Virus record (IMG/VR): IMGVR_UViG_3300006737_000114
Coordinates: 1 to 30,453 of that record
Strand: one strand, 5' to 3'
Length of the DNA: 30,453 nucleotides
DNA from: a virus
Shown: positions 2,563 through 30,453 of the stretch, in pieces
Numbering within the stretch: the stretch's first letter is position 1
Layout: every line of letters begins with the position of its first letter
Program-made: the position numbers and the translations under genes
Notes under the pieces: generated by a model
Told to the model about the DNA's origin: nothing
The model's input: only the letters and a program-made list of their open reading frames with translations
Databases searched by the model: none

Positions 2563-2979
2563 ATGCCAAAACTTGGTCGAAGAAGTATGAAAAGACTTAA
2601 GGGAGTAGATCCTAGACTTATATCTGTATTGCAAAAAGTTGTAAAATATTATGACATTACAATTATTGAAGGATTACGCTCTCAAGAAAGACAAAATGAG
2701 TTGTTGGCGCAAGGAAAATCTAAGACCAAGTTTAGCAAACACTGTATTGGAAAGGCAGTCGATCTTGCAATGTACCCTATAAATTGGGAAAATAGAGATG
2801 ATTGGCATATGCTTGGTGGATTTATTTTAGGGATTGCAGCTTCAATGGGTGTAAATATTCGCTGGGGTGGAGATTGGTCTTCTCCAAGTCTTGATAAAGA
2901 TGTGATGGCTGGAAAAGAAAAAAGAACAACGTCTGATAATTCTTTTGACGATTTATGTCATTTTGAAATAATAGAATAA
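2563..2979 (+). CDS. M15-family peptidase, endolysin
   Basis: 138 residues from ATG 2563, the start that leaves one base after the upstream stop; an in-frame extension to 2503 would run through the previous gene. The zinc site of the M15 (VanY/L-alanyl-D-glutamate peptidase) family is complete: S-x-H60 ... G-x-A-x-D67 with H133 in the FDDLCHFEI block, and D130 nearby as likely acid/base partner. It should cut peptide stems of the host cell wall at the end of infection. No signal peptide, so export depends on a holin. The stop overlaps the next gene (TAATG). Confidence 0.9.
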   Translation: MPKLGRRSMKRLKGVDPRLISVLQKVVKYYDITIIEGLRSQERQNELLAQGKSKTKFSKHCIGKAVDLAMYPINWENRDDWHMLGGFILGIAASMGVNIRWGGDWSSPSLDKDVMAGKEKRTTSDNSFDDLCHFEIIE

Positions 2980-4055
2980 TGATAAAACATCCAAATCAAT
3001 ATAATAAAAAACCACCAAAAGACGATAATGGAAATTTATTAGGTTGTCCTAATTGTGAAAATAATAATATTACTAAAGACGGGATGAGGACTTATGGAAA
3101 AACTGGTAAAAAAAAGCAAAGATATTTTTGTTCTAAGTGTCAAAAAAGTACAATAAAACCTAGAATAGTTGAGTTAAGTGAATTTGTAGTACAAGAAATC
3201 CCTGTTGAAGAAATGTCTATTGAAGATATTATTAAATATAGAAATAAAAAATACAATAAAAAATATCAAGCCTATAAAAATAAAAAACTAATAGATATTA
3301 AAATAAATTTACACGGACCTATTGGAATATGTCACTTTGGAGACCCTCACGTTGATGACGATGGAACAAACTTAGCAGAAATCTATGATTTATGTAATTT
3401 AATAAATAACACAGATGGTATGTTTGCCGGAAATTTAGGAGATGTACAAAATAATTGGATTGGTAGGCTGCAGGCTTTATATGGTCAACAATCAACCACC
3501 GCTAAAGAATCTTGGATTTTGTCAGAGCATTTTTTAAAATTAGTTAACTGGCTTTATTTAATAGCAGGAAATCATGATGTGTGGAGTGGTGATGGTGACC
3601 CGTTAGAATTTATTATGAGAGATAGACCTTCAGTGTTTGAAGCTCATGGAGCAAGGATGAATTTAAGATTTCCTAATGGAAAATCAGTTAGACTAAACTG
3701 CCGCCATCAATTTAAAGGTAATTCAATGTGGAATACTGCTCACGCAATTAGTAGGGCAGTTCAAACTGGATGGAGAGACCATATATTAACTGCTGGACAT
3801 ACTCACGTAAGTGGATATCAAGTTCTTAAAGACCCAGCTAGTGGATTAATTAGTCACGCAATTCAAGTTGCTTCTTTTAAGAACATGGATGAATATGCTA
3901 ATAAATTAGGATTAGATGATAAAAATATTTTTAATGCGCCAGTTACAATTATTGATCCTCAATATGATGATAATGATAATAAATTAATCACTACATTTTT
4001 TAATCCGTATGAAGCAGCAGATTATTTAACGTTTAAACGAAAAAGGTACAAATAA
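2979..4055 (+). CDS. Zinc-finger plus calcineurin-like metallophosphoesterase fusion
   Basis: 358 residues. An N-terminal four-Cys finger (C23, C26, C51, C54) looks like the insertion-element transposase type (InsA-like), followed by a Lys-rich linker and a full metallophosphoesterase core: GDPH (121-124), GD at 154-155 with NN, GNHD (197-200), H243 and GHTH (273-276). All metal ligands of the family are present, so an active phosphodiesterase or phosphatase is expected, likely on DNA given the finger. It lies between the endolysin and neck genes and overlaps both by one base, an odd spot for a DNA enzyme. The substrate is unknown. Confidence 0.88.
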   Translation: MIKHPNQYNKKPPKDDNGNLLGCPNCENNNITKDGMRTYGKTGKKKQRYFCSKCQKSTIKPRIVELSEFVVQEIPVEEMSIEDIIKYRNKKYNKKYQAYKNKKLIDIKINLHGPIGICHFGDPHVDDDGTNLAEIYDLCNLINNTDGMFAGNLGDVQNNWIGRLQALYGQQSTTAKESWILSEHFLKLVNWLYLIAGNHDVWSGDGDPLEFIMRDRPSVFEAHGARMNLRFPNGKSVRLNCRHQFKGNSMWNTAHAISRAVQTGWRDHILTAGHTHVSGYQVLKDPASGLISHAIQVASFKNMDEYANKLGLDDKNIFNAPVTIIDPQYDDNDNKLITTFFNPYEAADYLTFKRKRYK

Positions 4056-9465: not shown

Positions 9466-12400
9466 GTTTATCAAATACCAACTATTTAAATATTGCTAAA
9501 ACAAAAAATGTAGAAGAAAATTGGTTATTTCAATTATTTAATCAAAATTCGTATTTAGAGTTTGATGGTGATGATGATTATATAGATTTAGGAGCAACAA
9601 CTAGTTCGTCTCCAACCTCATTAACCGCTACTGAAGACATGTCCGTTTCTTTTTGGGTTAAATTTAACGGAACTAGTCAATGGATTTACATGAATAATAG
9701 CGTAGATAGTAAATATGCTGGAGTAAGTATATATGTAGATGAAGATAGAAAATTTTCATTTTTGTATGGCGACAATACTGGTGTGTCGGGTAGCGATTTT
9801 TTAAGATTTAAAACAAGTACAACTTATGAAGATAATACTTGGTATCATGTTACTATTACTACAAACTTTTTTCAAAGTGGCACAACATTTTATGTAAATG
9901 GTTCAAGTTCAGACATAACTACTAATGGCTCAGGTAGTTTATCTTCTTCGTCAATTCAATATACAAATGGGAATGCATACATCGCTAGATCTAATCCTCA
10001 AAATCCCGATTCTTATGGAAATATATGTTTAAGAAATTTAGCTGTTTGGTCAGGTGTATTAGATTCAGATAATGCTGTTGCTATTTATAATAGTGGCAAT
10101 TTTTTAAGTTTAATAAACGATTTTGGCAATTATAATCAATCAACAAATCTTGTAGGATATTGGGAATTTAATAATGGCGACAACATAGCAACCGACTTAA
10201 CTGGTAATAGCGCTGCTGGAACTATATACGGAGCTTACTACAAAGATTTTTTAGGTCTTTCATTTGCAAATACTAAAGTAAGTGATACATACTATAATGG
10301 CGTAATAAAATCTTCTCCATCAATAAGAGAAACACTTGATTTAAAAAACTCTATTGCAAAATCAAGTAATTTAAGAATAAGCGCAATAAATTCTAAATAC
10401 AAAGGATTTAATCTAAGCGAAGAAATATTAGGTGGAAGTAATTACTATTATAATCAAACAGTAAAAGTTTATTCTCAGTTAAATAAAACAGATAAAATAA
10501 ACGATTGTATGCAATTATATCATGGAAGATTGTCTGATGTCTCTCATGATATTGAAAGTATAAATATGAATGTTGTTCAGCAAAGACCTTGGGATTTTAT
10601 AACTATTCCAAATACTAAAACAACAGAAAGAAAATTATTAATTCCAATTGCTTATGGAGATTATACTAGAAATGGAGCAAGCACTGTAGCAAATCCAAAA
10701 TTTAGGTCTACTTTAACATCATATGCTTATAGAAAAGTTGAATACAATAAAATTTCAGACGGGTTTGCTATATACCCTAATGTAAATAGTGCGTCTAGTG
10801 AAGCAGAATTAGCAATTTATAATGACCAATTTGATATGTTTATCCCTTTATCAAATGCTCAAGCAACAACTGTAAACACAGATGGAGCATTTCATGGAAA
10901 GATAGAAACAAGAGCGCAAAGAATATTTGGAGTAAGACCTGATTCAATTAGCACTATAGGAACAGTAAATAGCAGAATTACTGTTAGCAATTTAGACAGA
11001 GTAATTGACGCTGATAATACTAATTATGCTGAATTTTCTGCTAATTTTACTACATTTGTAGTTGCTGGGGCAAATTATTATTTAAACATAGACACCCCAG
11101 AAGAAGATGTTAGCTTTTTTAATTTAAAAAACGATGATGGTGACAGAGTATTAATAAATGATTCAGGCGGAATAAGTTCAAGCGATACAACGCTTACAAT
11201 TGACGATGTTAGTAGTTTGTTTGTGGGTTCAATTTTAAAATTAAAAGAAGAAATAGTAACTGTAACAAGTATTAACCCTAGCACCAAAACTTTAACTATT
11301 TCAAGAGGAGATTATAATACAACTGCGATTGCTCATTCTGATGATGATGAAATTTTTACTACTAATAATTATAACATATTACATTTAAAATACCAAATTA
11401 ATGTTACTCAAGCTGGAACAAATAATAAATTTCTTTTAATTGTTGGAAATGAAGGAGCTTTTTTTGTAGAAGAAACTCAATCTAGTATTTCAACTACTAC
11501 TAAAAAAATACCATTTCCCGGATTTTGCAAAAGAATAGTTTTATCAGTTAATTTTGTAGGAGATGGAGCTACTCCAATAGTTGGCAATTTTAGAATTTTT
11601 GATGCTTTTATAGTTGCAAGTAGAGAAAGTAAAAAACCAGAAAAGAATTTATATATTGCAAATGATGGATTAACTACAACTTTATCAGATACAACAACTG
11701 TTAGTGGTTTAGTTTCTTCCGGTTTACACGTTCATAGAGATTTACTTGCAAGGTTTACTGGGTATGATGTCAGAGATTCTGATTTATATAATTGGTCATC
11801 TGGTTTAAATGTTAATTCAATTAGGTCTGCATGGCTATCAAGAATTAGCTTAATAGATGAAGTAGATTTAAAAAAGGTTCTTGAAAAAATTCAAAAAGAA
11901 TTTGGATTTATTTTTAAATTTAGACCTGATGGAACTGGCTCTTACTGGACAGTAAAAGCAAGTTATGCTTCTAGTGATGTTGTAGAAACGCTAACAAAAA
12001 ACGATATTTCAAATATTAAAATATCTCATACACCTTTTACTGATTTATTAACAAAAATGAATGTAAATTATGTAAAGCATCCTGCACAATCCACATATTT
12101 GTCTACCATAGTTTCTGAAGATATTACGACTTCACCAACACCAAGACAGAGAATGAATATTAGAGCAAAAGAAAATACTGCAACTGTAAATCTTGATTAT
12201 AATTATAATAAACCCGGTAATGTGGATATTGGAGCAACTGGTTCAGACCCAGCAGATGGATATAGCGATTATTATATGAATATTTTTGGAGATGTTAGAA
12301 AAATAATATCATGTAATATTATAAATATTGGTAAAGGTTATAAATTAGAAGCTGGTGATGTAATTAAATTTGATATAAGTGAAATAAAACCATATGGAAA

Positions 12401-17593: not shown

Positions 17594-17957
17594 TTTTTTT
17601 GTTAATGACTTATTTGATACATTAGATATAAAAGGAAATAATCAACTATTATTTAATCAATTCTGCAGCTTATTAATGAAGTTTGATAAAGAAACAATTA
17701 AAAAAGGTTGGAAGGATATTGTTTATAGTTGCGAGCCGCCTAATGGACAAATGGCAGGAAGACTACCTAAGATGTTTGTTATAGAAAAGATATTAATGAG
17801 TAATAGAATAGACTCTTTTAATATAGAACATAGAGCAAATAAGAAAAAAGAAGTAGAAGCAGGAACAATATCTAAATTATTTAATTGGGGTATTGAATAT
17901 CATGAAGGAAAAATAACTAAACAAGAACTAGAAAAAAGGATAAATGATAATTTATGA
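17559..17957 (+). CDS. Hypothetical helical protein, possible helicase loader partner
   Basis: 132 residues, AAGGA site within the end of the initiator gene. All-helical pattern with a WKDIVYSCEPPNGQMAG turn in the middle and an acidic helical C-terminus. Helical proteins next to phage initiators often act as helicase loaders, but there is no Walker motif here, so it would not be a DnaC-type ATPase. Start is chosen from the ribosome site; the stop overlaps the dUTPase ATG. Confidence 0.6.
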   Translation: MSEKKCSSQEASFFVNDLFDTLDIKGNNQLLFNQFCSLLMKFDKETIKKGWKDIVYSCEPPNGQMAGRLPKMFVIEKILMSNRIDSFNIEHRANKKKEVEAGTISKLFNWGIEYHEGKITKQELEKRINDNL

Positions 17958-18400
17958 ATAAAATATTTTTTACTAAAACAAGAGATGTTAAAAGCCCAGA
18001 AAGAACTGGTTTAAATGCAGGTATTGATTTTTTTATACCAAATGATTTTGTAAAAACAGTTTTACATGGTAAAAGTGATATATTAATACCAAGTGGAATA
18101 AAAATAAAACTACCTGAAGGTTTTGCTTTAATAGCTTTTAATAAAAGTGGTATAGCTACTAAATATAATATTATATCTGGTGCATGTGTTGTAGATGAAA
18201 ATTATACTGGTGAGATACACTTGCATTTAATAAATTTAAAGTCTGAGTATTTTAAATTAAAACCTGGTATGAAAATATTGCAATTTATTCCTATTAAAAT
18301 GGATTATATGAATCTGGAGATAACTTCTAATAAAGGATTAATAAGTATGCAAGATTTCTCTGAAAGAGGTGATAAAGGTTTTGGGAGTACAGGAATATGA
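17954..18400 (+). CDS. dut: dUTP diphosphatase (dUTPase)
   Basis: 148 residues with all five trimeric dUTPase motifs: I AGIDFF (22-27), II NKSG (63-66, where RSSG is usual), III GACVVDENYTGEI (76-88, uracil-reading hairpin with catalytic D81), IV GMKILQF (105-111), V RGDKGFGSTG (138-147). It turns dUTP into dUMP plus pyrophosphate, keeping uracil out of DNA and feeding dUMP synthesis. Overlaps both neighbours by four bases, forming a tight nucleotide-metabolism set with the next two genes. Confidence 0.95.
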   Translation: MNKIFFTKTRDVKSPERTGLNAGIDFFIPNDFVKTVLHGKSDILIPSGIKIKLPEGFALIAFNKSGIATKYNIISGACVVDENYTGEIHLHLINLKSEYFKLKPGMKILQFIPIKMDYMNLEITSNKGLISMQDFSERGDKGFGSTGI

Positions 18401-18669
18401 AAAAATCTATTTTAATTAAAGCAGAAGAAATAGTAAATAATAGATCTGAAGAAAAAGAAAGACAATATGGACCATTTTCAGAAGGTATGGAAAGAGCTGC
18501 TATGATTGCTTCTGGTGCAACAGGTAAAGATATTAATGCAAGTGATATGTATATAATGTTGGTTGCATTAAAACTATCAAGACAGAGTTATAATCACAAA
18601 GAAGATAATTTATTAGACGCAGTTGCATATTTAGCAGCTTTAGATAATTATAATAACAAGGAGGAGTAA
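18397..18669 (+). CDS. DUF6378, MazG-like helical protein
   Basis: 90 residues. It shows the DUF6378 layout seen in many phages: AEEIV-x-x-R-S-E-E-K-E-R-QYGPF, then a helix with DMY-x-x-x-x-x-LK-x-SR, ending DNLLDAVAYLAALDNY. The acidic helices and D/E pairs resemble the all-alpha MazG-type NTP pyrophosphohydrolases, so it may hydrolyse a dNTP. That activity is inferred, not shown. Four-base ATGA overlap with dUTPase; start of the next gene follows at its stop. Confidence 0.78.
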   Translation: MKKSILIKAEEIVNNRSEEKERQYGPFSEGMERAAMIASGATGKDINASDMYIMLVALKLSRQSYNHKEDNLLDAVAYLAALDNYNNKEE

Positions 18670-19364
18670 TGATAAATCATAGTTCAAACAATATAGATAA
18701 TTTATTTATAAATATATCTAAAGACCTTATCACAAAAGGAAATAAAATATCACCAAGGGGTTTAAAAACAATAGAACTGCAGCACGTTTGGCTTGAACTA
18801 ACTAATATGCAAAAGTGTATTGTTAATTTAAAATCAAGAAAAATGAGTAAGAAATATTTAAAAAATGAATTAAAATGGTATTTATCAGGCTCATTAAAAA
18901 TAGATAAAATAAAAAAATATTCATCATTTTGGCAAAGCTTAATTGATACTAATGGTACAATAAATAGTAATTACGGAAATATTGCTTTTATACAAAAACA
19001 AAATGGAAAAAGTCAGTTTGAATGGTGTGTTGATTCAATCAAAAAAGATAAAAATACAAGACAAGCTATAATAAATTATAATCAACCAATGCATAAATAT
19101 GATAATAATAAAGATTTTGTTTGTACTATAGCGCAGCATTTTATGGTTAGAGATGGTAAACTTGATACAACTGTATTTATGAGAAGTAATGATTTAATAT
19201 ATGGCTTAACTTATGATGCACCTTGGTTTTGTTTGTTATCTAAAAAAATAGCTAAAAAAACAAATTTAAAATTAGGTACTTATAGGCATTATGCAGCTAG
19301 TCTTCATGTTTATGAAAGACATTTTAATATGTTATTTGATATTTGTGCAGAAACCCTTAAATAA
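18669..19364 (+). CDS. Thymidylate synthase homologue, predicted dCMP (hydroxy)methylase-type
   Basis: 231 residues, GGAGGAG site upstream. It aligns without gaps to E. coli ThyA from the catalytic Cys onward: C152 (ThyA C146), R172-S173 (R166-S167), D175 (D169), H213 (H207) and Y215 (Y209). E67 (ELKWYL) matches E58 and R30 matches R21. The telling change is D183 in GLTYDAPW where thymidylate synthases have N177, the residue that reads uracil. T4 dCMP hydroxymethylase has Asp at this site, and the same swap in Lactobacillus enzyme favours dCMP. So the likely substrate is dCMP, made into 5-methyl- or 5-hydroxymethyl-dCMP. Plain ThyA cannot be excluded by eye. Confidence 0.82.
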   Translation: MINHSSNNIDNLFINISKDLITKGNKISPRGLKTIELQHVWLELTNMQKCIVNLKSRKMSKKYLKNELKWYLSGSLKIDKIKKYSSFWQSLIDTNGTINSNYGNIAFIQKQNGKSQFEWCVDSIKKDKNTRQAIINYNQPMHKYDNNKDFVCTIAQHFMVRDGKLDTTVFMRSNDLIYGLTYDAPWFCLLSKKIAKKTNLKLGTYRHYAASLHVYERHFNMLFDICAETLK

Positions 19365-19470
19365 CCCTTAAAAAATATGTAAAATAAATAAATAAAGGGT
19401 GTCCTCGTATTGCTTTTTTTTGTACTTTCTAGGTGTGATTATCGAAAACAAACAAGAAAGTGAAAATAAA
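19352..19470 (+). promoter_or_regulatory. Leader region before the amidoligase operon
   Basis: The gap holds two AACCCTT motifs 11 bases apart (19352, 19363), the same arrangement as at 13685, an ACCCTT/AAGGGT inverted pair (19364-19369 with 19395-19400), and a T8 run at 19413-19421. A weak terminator for the upstream operon and/or a promoter for the downstream one is likely. The first motif copy lies in the last codons of the thymidylate synthase homologue. Confidence 0.4.
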
Positions 19471-20505
19471 ATGAATAAAAAAGGACAATTTAACGACGAG
19501 AGAGGTTTTGGAGTTGAGATTGAATTTATCAGACCAAGAGGTACTTCAAAGCAAGATATATGTGATGCTTTAACATTAACTTGTAATGTTGAAGGTTATA
19601 ACCATATTACTAGACCAAATTGGAAGATAGTAAACGACGTTTCTGTTAGTGCTAATGGCCGCAGAGGTTATGTAGGTGAAAATGAACTTGTTTCGCCTAT
19701 ATTATATGGTGAAGACGGTTTTGCGCAGTTAAAGCAAATACTTGATACTCTTAATGAATTAGAATGTAAAGTTAACTATACTTGTGGTATTCATGTGCAT
19801 CACGACGTTACTAATATGATGGTTCAAGGTAAAGAAAAAAGTCAAAAATTCTTAGCTAATCTTGTAAAATTTGTTGCTAAGTATGAACATTTAATTTACA
19901 AATTAGTTTCACCTTCAAGGTTAGATAACAGATATTATAGTACTCCTGTTAGAAGAGAATACTTTGGGTATGATTATGACGTTAGTAAAAATGATGTTAA
20001 AAAAATGATTTCTAAAGTTAAAAGAGATTGTAATAGAAAATATAACACAAATGGTAATGCTATTGACAGGTATCAACCAAGTCCAAATGTTCAAACTAAT
20101 AGAGCTTGTGGGCTTAACTTTCGTAATGTTTGGACAAGAGGAGCTGTTGAATTTAGATACCATAATGGTTCATTAAACTTTGATAAAATAGTTTCATGGG
20201 TTGTATTTACTCAAGCTATAATCAACGCTGTTGAAGATACTAAAAGTGTTGCTATGTCGTTTGTACCAAATAATATAAAAGGCTTAGCAAGTTTAAGAGG
20301 TGCTATAGGTTTTATAAGAAGAAGTGGTATGGAACCAACTGAGAGAACAATATTTTCAAGAGACGAACGCGTTAATTCAGCTAATAAGTATGTACAAAAA
20401 AGGTATAAAGAGTTAAGCAGAAGAGAAGCTGACTATGAATTAAACAGACATTATGTTTTTGTAAAAAACGGTTTAACAACTAATCAACAAGGAGGTTTAG
20501 CATAA
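19471..20505 (+). CDS. Amidoligase (Amidoligase_2-like, glutamate-ligase fold)
   Basis: 344 residues from ATG 19471. A GTG 72 bases upstream is in frame but would add a Phe-rich stretch in the leader, so ATG is preferred, though its ribosome site is weak. Conserved parts: GVEIEF (14-19), V-G-E-N-E-L-V-S-P (68-76), CGIHVHHDV (105-113) and VEFRYHNGSLN (226-236). The Glu pairs and His are the metal and ATP ligands of the glutamine-synthetase/glutamate-cysteine-ligase-like amidoligases, which join an acid to an amine using ATP. Partners downstream supply ammonia and gamma-glutamyl chemistry. The substrate is unknown. Confidence 0.85.
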   Translation: MNKKGQFNDERGFGVEIEFIRPRGTSKQDICDALTLTCNVEGYNHITRPNWKIVNDVSVSANGRRGYVGENELVSPILYGEDGFAQLKQILDTLNELECKVNYTCGIHVHHDVTNMMVQGKEKSQKFLANLVKFVAKYEHLIYKLVSPSRLDNRYYSTPVRREYFGYDYDVSKNDVKKMISKVKRDCNRKYNTNGNAIDRYQPSPNVQTNRACGLNFRNVWTRGAVEFRYHNGSLNFDKIVSWVVFTQAIINAVEDTKSVAMSFVPNNIKGLASLRGAIGFIRRSGMEPTERTIFSRDERVNSANKYVQKRYKELSRREADYELNRHYVFVKNGLTTNQQGGLA

Positions 20506-20506
20506 T

Positions 20507-21409
20507 ATGTGTGGGCTAGCAGGAGTTATTTTAAAACAAAAAAACAGAAATACTGAGGCACTTAAAAATGTCTCAGTATCCTTTTCTAAAATGTTAACAG
20601 CAGCTAATATAAGAGGAGGGCATGCGACAGGTTTTGCATTGATTGATAAATATGGCGATTATGTAATATGTAAAAAACCCAAAGAAGCTTATGAGTTTTT
20701 TGATGATAAAGAAGTAAAAGACAATATTGATTTAGTTTATGATGGTATTACAACTATTATGGGTCATACAAGATATGCAACTTTAGGTTCTCCTTCTGTT
20801 AATAAAAATAATCATCCAATACGTACAGGTCAAACTATAGGTACTCATAATGGTTCTATATCAAACCATAAAGAGTTATTTCACAAATATGATATGAAAA
20901 GATACGCACAAGTTGATAGTGAGGCTATATTTAGACTATATGAAACGTCTAACAGTGTTGATGATTTTCTTACTAATAGATTACCAAGGGTGCAAGGTAG
21001 AGTTGCTATTGTTTGGGCTGATTTAGAACGACCAAATTATGTTTATATGATAAAAGCTAATAATCCAATTCAAATGGCTTATGTACCAGAGTTTGATTGT
21101 TTTGTCTATGGTAGTACTGATTCAATTATAGATGCTGGTTTTTGGGGCGAATATGAGCCAATAAACATAGCTGCTAATACTATGATACGAATTAACACTA
21201 AAACACTTAACTTTGATATAAAGAAAATAGAAATATCTAAACCTAAGTTTAAAAGATATAAAAAACTAAAATCTTACTATAATGAAAAAATAGGAGCTTA
21301 CGAAGAGGTAATTGATACTATTCCTAATTTTGTACCAAGGTTTTCATATAGTGACCAATTAAAAATGTTTAAAGCTAGTGATGGCTCAAAGATAAGGAAG
21401 GTAAAATAA
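20507..21409 (+). CDS. Class II glutamine amidotransferase, stand-alone
   Basis: 300 residues beginning Met-Cys2-Gly, so removal of Met exposes the N-terminal nucleophile Cys. The rest of the Ntn-hydrolase site is present: GHTRYATLG (86-94), THNGS (113-117) and D137 in QVDSEAIF. This matches the glutaminase half of GlmS/PurF. No sugar isomerase or phosphoribosyl domain follows; the last 100 residues are a basic tail. It should release ammonia or a gamma-glutamyl group from glutamine and hand it to the amidoligase next door. The stop overlaps the next ATG. Confidence 0.88.
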   Translation: MCGLAGVILKQKNRNTEALKNVSVSFSKMLTAANIRGGHATGFALIDKYGDYVICKKPKEAYEFFDDKEVKDNIDLVYDGITTIMGHTRYATLGSPSVNKNNHPIRTGQTIGTHNGSISNHKELFHKYDMKRYAQVDSEAIFRLYETSNSVDDFLTNRLPRVQGRVAIVWADLERPNYVYMIKANNPIQMAYVPEFDCFVYGSTDSIIDAGFWGEYEPINIAANTMIRINTKTLNFDIKKIEISKPKFKRYKKLKSYYNEKIGAYEEVIDTIPNFVPRFSYSDQLKMFKASDGSKIRKVK

Positions 21410-22029
21410 TGGATGATAAATTTATGGGTATAGAAGTATTTGTATATGGCACATTAAAAAAAGGTGGAATGAATCATCATTTTTTAAAAGATAGTGATTT
21501 TATTAGGCATGAGATTTTAATAGATCACTCTATTTACGTACCAAGAGGTATGAGATTTCCATTGATGCTTAAAAACAAAGGCGGCAAAGTTTATGGTGAA
21601 GTTTATCGCATTAGTAGTACAACGTTAGCTAAATTAGATATGTTAGAAAGTGAAGGACATTTGTATAATCGTGTTAATGATATTAAATTAGGTTATCAAT
21701 ATTATCTTTTTAATGAAACAGATGCATGGGAAATAAGTAAAGAAAATGATATAATTGATAATGGATATTGGAAAACAACAAGTGAAGTTGATTTAAATTT
21801 AATAATAGATAATCGTAATTATACAGATAAAGCAGATAAATTAGTATTTCACATGAGATTTTTTGACGGGCAGCGAGCACCAACTAATAAGATTTACATG
21901 GATTTAGTAAAAAGAAGAAGTTATTTAGACTTAAATACGGATAATGAGGAAATATTTTTAAGAGATTGTATAATAAATGGAGTTGTTAGTGAGTTTAGAG
22001 AGCCAATACATAAGTTCTATAATATGTAA
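21409..22029 (+). CDS. Gamma-glutamylcyclotransferase-like (AIG2/GGCT) protein
   Basis: 206 residues. The N-terminal half has the family core: VFVYGTLKKGGMNH (10-23) for substrate binding and LDMLESEGHLYNR (76-88), where E80 is the expected catalytic Glu. In this family the enzyme splits gamma-glutamyl-amines by making 5-oxoproline. The second half (about 100-206) is unrecognised. It overlaps the amidotransferase stop by one base, so the amidoligase, amidotransferase and this gene are one unit. It could trim or recycle the amidoligase product. Confidence 0.85.
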   Translation: MDDKFMGIEVFVYGTLKKGGMNHHFLKDSDFIRHEILIDHSIYVPRGMRFPLMLKNKGGKVYGEVYRISSTTLAKLDMLESEGHLYNRVNDIKLGYQYYLFNETDAWEISKENDIIDNGYWKTTSEVDLNLIIDNRNYTDKADKLVFHMRFFDGQRAPTNKIYMDLVKRRSYLDLNTDNEEIFLRDCIINGVVSEFREPIHKFYNM

Positions 22030-29601: not shown

Positions 29602-30453
29602 AAGGCATGATAAGTAATATTAGTGCAGGATTAGCGAGTGGGGGAACAGTAGATGGTGACCTAGTAATAACTGGAGATTTTAAAGTTGAGGGTGCTGGTA
29701 GTTTTACTTATGATGAGATGCTCAATGGCAAAATGAAAATCACGACAACGGATTCAGGTACAGCTTTATATGTTTACAATAATGCTAATCATAGTGGTAC
29801 TGGTTCAGGAGCGTTAGTTACATTAGAGCTTGATAATGCTTCTTCTAGTGGAACTGTTTTAGATATAAGGCATGATGGTAGTGGAGACTTTTTAAATCTC
29901 AGAGCTACAACAACAGAAGTAATGACTGTTACTTCCGCAGGTCGATTGGGATTAGGCACAGACTCGCCTAGTACACAATTGGATGTTAGAAGCAGTGCTG
30001 AAACAGTCATGCAAATTAAAAACTCAGGTAGTTCAAGAGCTAAACTTGTTCTAGATAGTGGTGCTAATATAGCTGAATTATGGTTTGCAGTTAGTGGTAC
30101 TGCTAAAACTGCCTTTTATCAAAAAGCTGACGGCAATTCTTTAGGTGTTTATAGTTTTGCTAATTCTGCTGATGTAATGACTTTTGACACTGCAAATCAA
30201 CGAGTTGGCATAGGCACAGACTCGCCTACAGCACCATTGCATCTTAAAACTGCAATGTCCACTAATACAAATACGGATGCTTTTAAAATATCAAATAGTG
30301 GTTATTTACTTGCAGTGTTGGGTGGAGATGACCTTGCATTTAATTCAGGTAAATTAGAATTATATCAAGATGGTAGTACAAAAAATATTAATTTAAGCGG
30401 TTCGTCACACGCTTCTTATCCGAGTTATATTTTAGGAAATCTTGGCATAGGTA
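29595..30453 (+). CDS. Tail fibre, N-terminal part (open at window end)
   Basis: Open from ATG 29595 to the window end with no stop, 286 codons plus one base. Gly/Ser/Thr/Asn-rich beta strands with recurring G-L/I-G-T-D-S-P modules, where each repeat has the layout LGIGT-D-SP-x-x-x-L (first near residue 120, next near 206, the third being entered at the window edge). This is a typical trimeric fibre shaft. The C-terminal S74 chaperone is at 1-318. The frame at the window end is one base into a codon while the start reads from base 1, so the two pieces do not join directly. Confidence 0.85.
   Translation, partial: MLKGMISNISAGLASGGTVDGDLVITGDFKVEGAGSFTYDEMLNGKMKITTTDSGTALYVYNNANHSGTGSGALVTLELDNASSSGTVLDIRHDGSGDFLNLRATTTEVMTVTSAGRLGLGTDSPSTQLDVRSSAETVMQIKNSGSSRAKLVLDSGANIAELWFAVSGTAKTAFYQKADGNSLGVYSFANSADVMTFDTANQRVGIGTDSPTAPLHLKTAMSTNTNTDAFKISNSGYLLAVLGGDDLAFNSGKLELYQDGSTKNINLSGSSHASYPSYILGNLGIG
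29953..30228 (+). repeat. Direct repeat in fibre gene
   Basis: An exact 18-base repeat, TAGGCACAGACTCGCCTA, occurs at 29953-29970 and 30211-30228. A third relative starts at the window end (TTGGCATAGG at 30442-30451, also at 30205-30214). It encodes the G-T-D-S-P part of the fibre repeats, so sequence similarity is partly protein-driven, but exact identity at synonymous positions suggests recent repeat exchange. Confidence 0.85.

Follow-up and report, generated by a model that had tools for sequence, protein, structure and literature searches.

The window, a viral record of 30.45 kb from IMG/VR whose coordinates are those of the whole stretch, contains a run of three genes, here called ALG, GAT and GGCT. 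The features of this triad and of the region upstream are the following.

17954 to 18669, plus strand: dUTPase and DUF6378 genes, which travel together with the hydroxymethylase gene (Pfam PF00692 and PF19905).
18669 to 19364, plus strand: probable dCMP hydroxymethylase, annotated as thymidylate synthase, in an exchangeable slot (PDB search, alignment of Cys and Asp).
19352 to 19443, plus strand: conserved promoter/operator-like element (single match in the window, relatives, edge of the slot exchange).
19471 to 20505, plus strand: ALG, an amidoligase (Amidoligase_2, PF12224), ATP-dependent COOH-NH2 ligase of the GCS/GS fold, 344 residues (Pfam, invariant residues, AlphaFold).
20507 to 21409, plus strand: GAT, a stand-alone class II (Ntn) glutamine amidotransferase with Cys2 as the nucleophile, 300 residues (GATase_6, GlmS profile match, conserved residues).
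20546 to 20583, plus strand: RNA hairpin and U-rich stretch, attenuator- or terminator-like, within the first 26 codons of GAT (stability, covariation).
21409 to 22029, plus strand: GGCT/GGACT, a gamma-glutamylamine-cyclotransferase-like protein with Glu80 as the catalytic residue, 206 residues (PF06094, Foldseek, alignment of E80).

The sequence-only reading had placed three adjacent coupled genes at 19471-22029, and these limits were exact. ALG and GAT are separated by 1 nt and the last nucleotide of GAT is the first of GGCT, all on the plus strand, whereas the gap between ALG and the upstream gene is about 106 nt. From this spacing, the triad looks translationally coupled and distinct from its upstream neighbour. 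An in-frame GTG at 19399 was judged less likely as the start of ALG. All three reading frames exceeded the curated cut-off of Pfam in the profile search. Where dN/dS could be computed for the triad, it was 0.06-0.29, showing that the genes are under purifying selection; decaying genes were thereby ruled out.

A terminal repeat was looked for in the 30.45 kb record and none was found. Since relatives reach 33-37 kb, the window record is probably slightly incomplete, which corrects the earlier description of a 30 kb genome. Positions 1-60 resemble the end of an S74-type intramolecular chaperone and the last gene (29645-30453) resembles the start of a tail fibre, and the two ends suggest a circular map opened inside a single fibre gene, with a short piece missing. 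Elsewhere in the window, a metallophosphoesterase (2979-4055) has an N-terminal zinc ribbon like a transposase finger (phrog_1191, E=0.0098).

The enzyme families named earlier were recovered in the profile searches for all three proteins. ALG matched Amidoligase_2 with E=5.7e-30, and its residues E16, E18, E72, H108, H110, D112, E227 and R229 were invariant in 20 relatives with 43-86% identity. The AlphaFold model of ALG had a pLDDT of 85, and its nearest solved folds were YbdK, glutamate-cysteine ligase (GCL), glutamine synthetase (GS) and PafA, at low TM-scores and high Foldseek probability. The model thus places ALG in the carboxylate-amine ligase superfamily. No direct experiment on a phage Amidoligase_2 protein, or activity of one, was found in the literature searched, and the main text of the MetaGPA paper gives no associations for amidoligases or amidotransferases. 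In bacterial genomes nine weak relatives were detected, mostly in uncultured genome bins, which yielded no informative operons or host call. A nucleotide search of isolated phages returned no relative of the region, and the triad proteins showed no match to a known anti-phage defence system in the PADLOC model search.

GAT matched GATase_6 (PF13522) with E=1.3e-15. Its profile match was to the glutaminase domain of GlmS and the synthase domain is absent, as had been read from the letters. The N-terminal Cys2 was found in 20 of the 21 aligned homologues, one of them called from an upstream start; the exception is the row of Vibrio phage 275E43-1. R89, N115-G116 and D137 are kept among the aligned homologues, and GAT thus has the N-terminal Cys, Arg, Asn-Gly and Asp of a class II Ntn glutaminase. 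GGCT matched GGACT (PF06094) with E=2.7e-19. Its model (pLDDT 88) was matched by Foldseek to 1v30 and 3jud/3juc and resembles human gamma-glutamylamine cyclotransferase. The YGTL loop is kept, and E80, invariant in the relatives, aligns with the catalytic E82 of GGACT. Outside the Pfam GGACT region, GGCT has a conserved C-terminal extension of about 80 residues (about residues 127-206) with a nearly invariant VFHMRFFDG..PTN motif (window 21787-22026). This domain is conserved in the group including L035 and is absent from the shorter GGCTs of PaP4 and GR1. The motifs from which complete-looking active sites had been proposed for the three enzymes correspond to conserved columns across the relatives, which supports the proposal.

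The linkage of the triad was surveyed in IMG/VR relatives that were recruited by ALG alone, and the partners were counted within 5 kb. All 30 close relatives whose sequence extends far enough downstream had both GAT and GGCT, in unchanged order and orientation and with all 60 partner genes on the same strand. Among the distant ALG loci, 26 of 31 had GAT and/or GGCT, the commonest pairing being GGCT without GAT (20/31). No GAT or GGCT match was found further from ALG in about 240 kb. Chance adjacency is ruled out by these counts, and the lack of linkage in relatives that would have spoken against the set was not observed. The cassette is also spread among phages of Pseudomonas, Vibrio, Arthrobacter and Bacillus and many uncultivated viruses. 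Bacillus phage 035JT001 has ALG and GGCT, and Arthrobacter phage Laroye has the order GGCT-ALG-GAT (a set also mentioned in PMC5513430). Pieces occur in a Faecalimonas phage and in Geobacillus GR1, and GAT, ALG and GGCT were detected in Planctomycetes Phage-ZRK32. In PaP4 (Pseudomonas) and LUZ24-like phages, Alcaligenes QDWS535 and Vibrio 275E43-1, components of the triad are accompanied by further ligases.

Upstream of ALG lies a predicted promoter/operator-like element that would serve the triad. It consists of AACCCTTA direct repeats at 11-bp spacing (19352-19371), the inverted half-site AAGGGT, a sigma70-like promoter and a TGTGATTATC leader. An 11-bp spacing of direct repeats is typical of OmpR/PhoB-type regulators. 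The element was matched once in the window and not at all in shuffled sequences. Every close relative examined had a related element before ALG: two AACYCTTA repeats 11 bp apart, degenerate in the more distant of these relatives, the inverted half-site, the sigma70-like promoter and then a leader resembling TGTGATTATC. In the relatives scanned, the double repeat occurred once per genome stretch, always upstream of ALG.

A second feature is located inside GAT, 40 nt past the start codon, where a hairpin runs into a stretch rich in U (dinucleotide z -4.8). The hairpin covaries: 5 of its 14 pairs were changed on both sides, one pair occurs as CG, AU, GC and UA, and none of 500 shuffles reached the covariation score. 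Synonymous recodings are less stable than the native sequence in the clade of the window (clade 1; z -2.1 to -4.0), and the same holds for L026-L028 and L031, where the hairpin lies at the equivalent place. It was not present in L029, L030, L033 and L034. A search of Rfam with the hairpin gave no match. We infer that it may serve for attenuation or processing between ALG and GAT-GGCT.

The gene directly upstream (18669-19364) is annotated in Pfam as thymidylate synthase. In the PDB search its product was closer to the T4 dCMP hydroxymethylase (1b49, E=9e-25) than to the best thymidylate synthase (6auj, 3e-17). Its Cys and Asp align with C148 and D179 of T4, and the D179-equivalent Asp, which replaces the Asn of thymidylate synthases, is kept in all members of the group. 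The gene therefore probably codes for a dCMP hydroxymethylase. The dUTPase and DUF6378 genes both occur in the hydroxymethylase-type relatives L004, L031 and L032, and the DUF6378 protein (18397-18669), which travels with dUTPase and hydroxymethylase, may be a nucleotide pyrophosphatase.

In other relatives this slot is filled by a TET-associated glycosyltransferase (TAGT), in some cases accompanied by an NAD-dependent epimerase, by an N6/N4-type methylase (L010, with homologues in L045 and L021) or by a C5-methylase (CmoX) with CmoA. TAGT (PF20691) was found in the slot of 10 of 24 relatives (L007:8196-9044, with equivalents in L009, L011, L024, L026-L030 and L034) and by sequence likeness in an eleventh, L082. 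Hydroxymethylase, TAGT and C5-methylase were mutually exclusive in the 24 records searched. No C5-methylase or hydroxymethylase was recognised in the TAGT records (up to 34 kb); a search for TET/JBP in the TAGT phages also gave no match, which carries little weight since the control was without match as well. In L008 (8096-9893) and L033 (6137-7956), CmoX and CmoA lie directly upstream of ALG-GAT-GGCT. The nearest PDB entry of the C5-methylase is 8yf3, with R350 of SpCmoX aligned, an Arg at the position of N304 of HhaI that marks CmoX. This Arg recognises the carboxyl of carboxy-SAM (PMC12783734). CmoA was identified by a profile match in L008 and by likeness in L033, and CmoY (Asn-synthetase-like, PF00733) was absent from the 24 records while the search controls were positive.

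Comparison of closely related records showed how the slot is exchanged. Between L008 and L007/L009, whose TerL proteins are 97-100% identical, identity is about 40% from 8099, where the conserved reading frame on the left has its stop codon, and recovers at 9892. This right edge of the exchange coincides exactly with the promoter-like element of ALG. ALG hardly changes among L007, L008, L009 and L010, whose slots hold TAGT, CmoX-CmoA or the N6/N4 methyltransferase. Between L033 and L030 (TerL 99%), the exchanged block takes in ALG (52%) and GAT (61%) along with CmoX-CmoA and stops close to where GAT meets GGCT (GGCT 84%). These breakpoints show that the slot is a modular exchange site and that the triad mostly stays, but can be replaced together with the slot. 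All close relatives with same-strand sequence upstream of ALG have a DNA-modification or glycosyltransferase gene adjoining; L035-L037 and L068, which are more distant, have their upstream C5-methylase on the opposite strand. On the ALG tree the slot labels change six times among 19 rows and the branches are long, and co-evolution of ALG with the slot type is not claimed. The parent contig of L010 is 80.8 kb long, more than twice the length of its relatives, with a single TerL, and is possibly a chimera or a larger phage with the same module. The hydroxymethylase-like gene, the exchangeable slot, the dedicated promoter element and the GAT hairpin had all been missed in the sequence-only reading.

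The best explanation, to which we give somewhat less than an even chance, is that the triad is a minimal amidoligase cassette that remodels gamma-glutamyl or amide bonds of a host envelope peptide. ALG would activate a carboxyl group with ATP (of the gamma-glutamyl type, by analogy of the fold) and join it to an amine, GAT would supply ammonia and/or glutamate by hydrolysis of glutamine, and GGCT would remove the gamma-glutamyl amide as 5-oxoproline and a free amine, leading to reversal or trimming. The modify/unmodify pathway suggested from the letters would be reasonable in its chemistry. The target would most likely be a peptidoglycan stem peptide or precursor that is altered early in infection, and the change would shield the infected cell against competing phages or against lysis at the wrong time. 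A conserved promoter of its own would drive the triad, the hairpin early in GAT would probably tune it, and the adjoining slot would be a separate, exchangeable anti-restriction module. An envelope target is favoured since the cassette is common to phages with no annotated DNA modification nearby and since ALG is indifferent to the slot chemistry. With its sequence kept across the slot chemistries and a promoter element of its own, ALG need not serve the slot enzyme. Against a role in peptidoglycan, the endolysin is the only recognised peptidoglycan-related gene in the window, and the role is a prediction that was repeated between papers (PMC5498523; PMC10580990). The modification or glycosyltransferase gene upstream of ALG in these close relatives and the co-exchange in L033 could also point to a functional coupling.

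In a rival reading, the product is a hypermodified DNA base: ALG and GAT would form an amide on a modified cytosine, the task of CmoY, and GGCT would trim or recycle. The base could be 5-carboxymethylcytosine from CmoX-CmoA in L008 and L033, or 5-hydroxymethylcytosine with an added group in the window phage. We regard a DNA-base target as unlikely and keep it mainly because of L008 and L033, where CmoX and CmoA provide a carboxyl handle, CmoY is missing and an amide ligase and a glutaminase are directly next to them. The joint exchange of ALG and GAT with CmoX-CmoA between near-identical backbones and the DNA-modification-type genes in the slot argue in the same direction, and the CmoY-type ligation of glycine onto 5cxmC by an amide bond is proven (PMC12783734). 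However, ALG stays nearly constant although only CmoX, among the exchanged slot enzymes, yields a carboxyl handle, LUZ24-like and other phages carry the cassette in regions where, as far as read, no neighbour is annotated for DNA modification, and the triad has its own promoter element. It is quite improbable that the constant ALG-GAT-GGCT is the amide-forming partner of the exchangeable cytosine-modification slot throughout, with ALG-GAT replacing CmoY on 5-carboxymethylcytosine and acting on further-derived carboxyls in the hydroxymethylase and TAGT members. If true, this would be an Amidoligase_2 enzyme that acts on DNA bases.

A soluble metabolite or a protein might instead be gamma-glutamylated and de-glutamylated, which we also consider improbable; candidates include a polyamine, a signal in host defence and a protein of the host. 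The many distant loci with ALG and GGCT only make a ligase and a gamma-glutamylamine cyclotransferase look like the core, and the fold of GGCT is close to that of GGACT, which acts on gamma-glutamylamines. In butirosin biosynthesis, a precedent from general knowledge, a gamma-glutamyl protecting group is added by a ligase and removed by a cyclotransferase. On the other side, a dedicated amine or peptide substrate gene was not recognised in the neighbourhood, and the triad was without a PADLOC match. Most doubtful is an auxiliary nitrogen or glutamate metabolism, in which nitrogen of glutamine is channelled and glutamate recycled for amino acid supply, since glutamine turnover needs no dedicated ligase and we know of no Amidoligase_2 enzyme with free amino acids as its product. 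It was proposed for ZRK32, which has GAT, amidoligase, glutathione synthase and GGCT and is associated with improved growth on nitrate or ammonium, a claim based on whole-phage effects and not on these enzymes (PMC10945688).

The triad, with three genes and a promoter of its own, is a minimal unit that lends itself to reconstitution. The exchange site with hydroxymethylase, TAGT, CmoX-CmoA or methyltransferase offers natural comparisons of differing modules on one backbone, by which a role of the cassette in DNA modification can be told apart from another function.

Among the known systems, MurT-GatD of S. aureus amidates the glutamate of peptidoglycan with two proteins (PMC3267633), a precedent for the best explanation. 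It is a functional analogue in that a ligase works with a separate amidotransferase, but the families are unrelated (a Mur ligase and a GatD-type amidotransferase). The product of 18669-19364 has T4 gp42 (1b49) as its nearest PDB homologue, with the dCMP-specifying Asp present; the identity is low, and no glucosyltransferase adjoins the gene in the window phage. TAGT fills the slot in relatives whose records, as described above, differ in having no recognised C5-methylase or hydroxymethylase. In the literature searched, no paper joined TAGT with an amidoligase, which limits but does not prove novelty. Synechococcus phage S-B43 has CmoA-CmoX-CmoY (PMC12783734), and in L008 and L033 CmoX and CmoA likewise adjoin a gene for an ATP-dependent amide ligase. 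Here, however, the ligase is an Amidoligase_2 of the GCS/GS fold with a separate GAT instead of the Asn-synthetase-like CmoY, and the window itself has neither CmoA nor CmoX.

The closest known system is the cassette of phiEco32, LUZ24 and RIO-1-like phages, for which PMC5498523 cites Iyer 2009 and Hardies 2013. In that paper on Pseudoalteromonas phages, the RIO-1-like version, with seven genes, is called a peptidoglycan modification cassette that presumably changes the host surface to counter superinfection, and it is conserved in phiEco32, LUZ24, PaP3, tf and others (PMC5498523). The superinfection idea was repeated for phiEco32 (PMC10580990). Both sets have Amidoligase_2, a class II GAT and GGCT in one operon-like run in the early/replication region. 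In contrast, the window set has only three genes, with no COOH-NH2 ligase of type 2 (PF14395) and no ATP-grasp gene seen, and differs in the C-terminal extension of GGCT, its own promoter element and the adjoining DNA-modification slot. PF14395, the second amidoligase, was above the cut-off in PaP4, QDWS535 and ZRK32 and weak in 275E43-1, and was absent from 16 records of the group. Since it is missing, the triad is described as a minimal, reduced form of the phage amidoligase cassette and not as a full member. The triad has thus already been treated in the literature, its fuller podovirus version being the peptidoglycan-modification and superinfection-exclusion cassette (PMC5498523; PMC10580990). 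New here are the exchangeable slot beside the triad, the combination of CmoX-CmoA with an amidoligase where CmoY is absent, the promoter element dedicated to the triad and the hairpin with its covariation.
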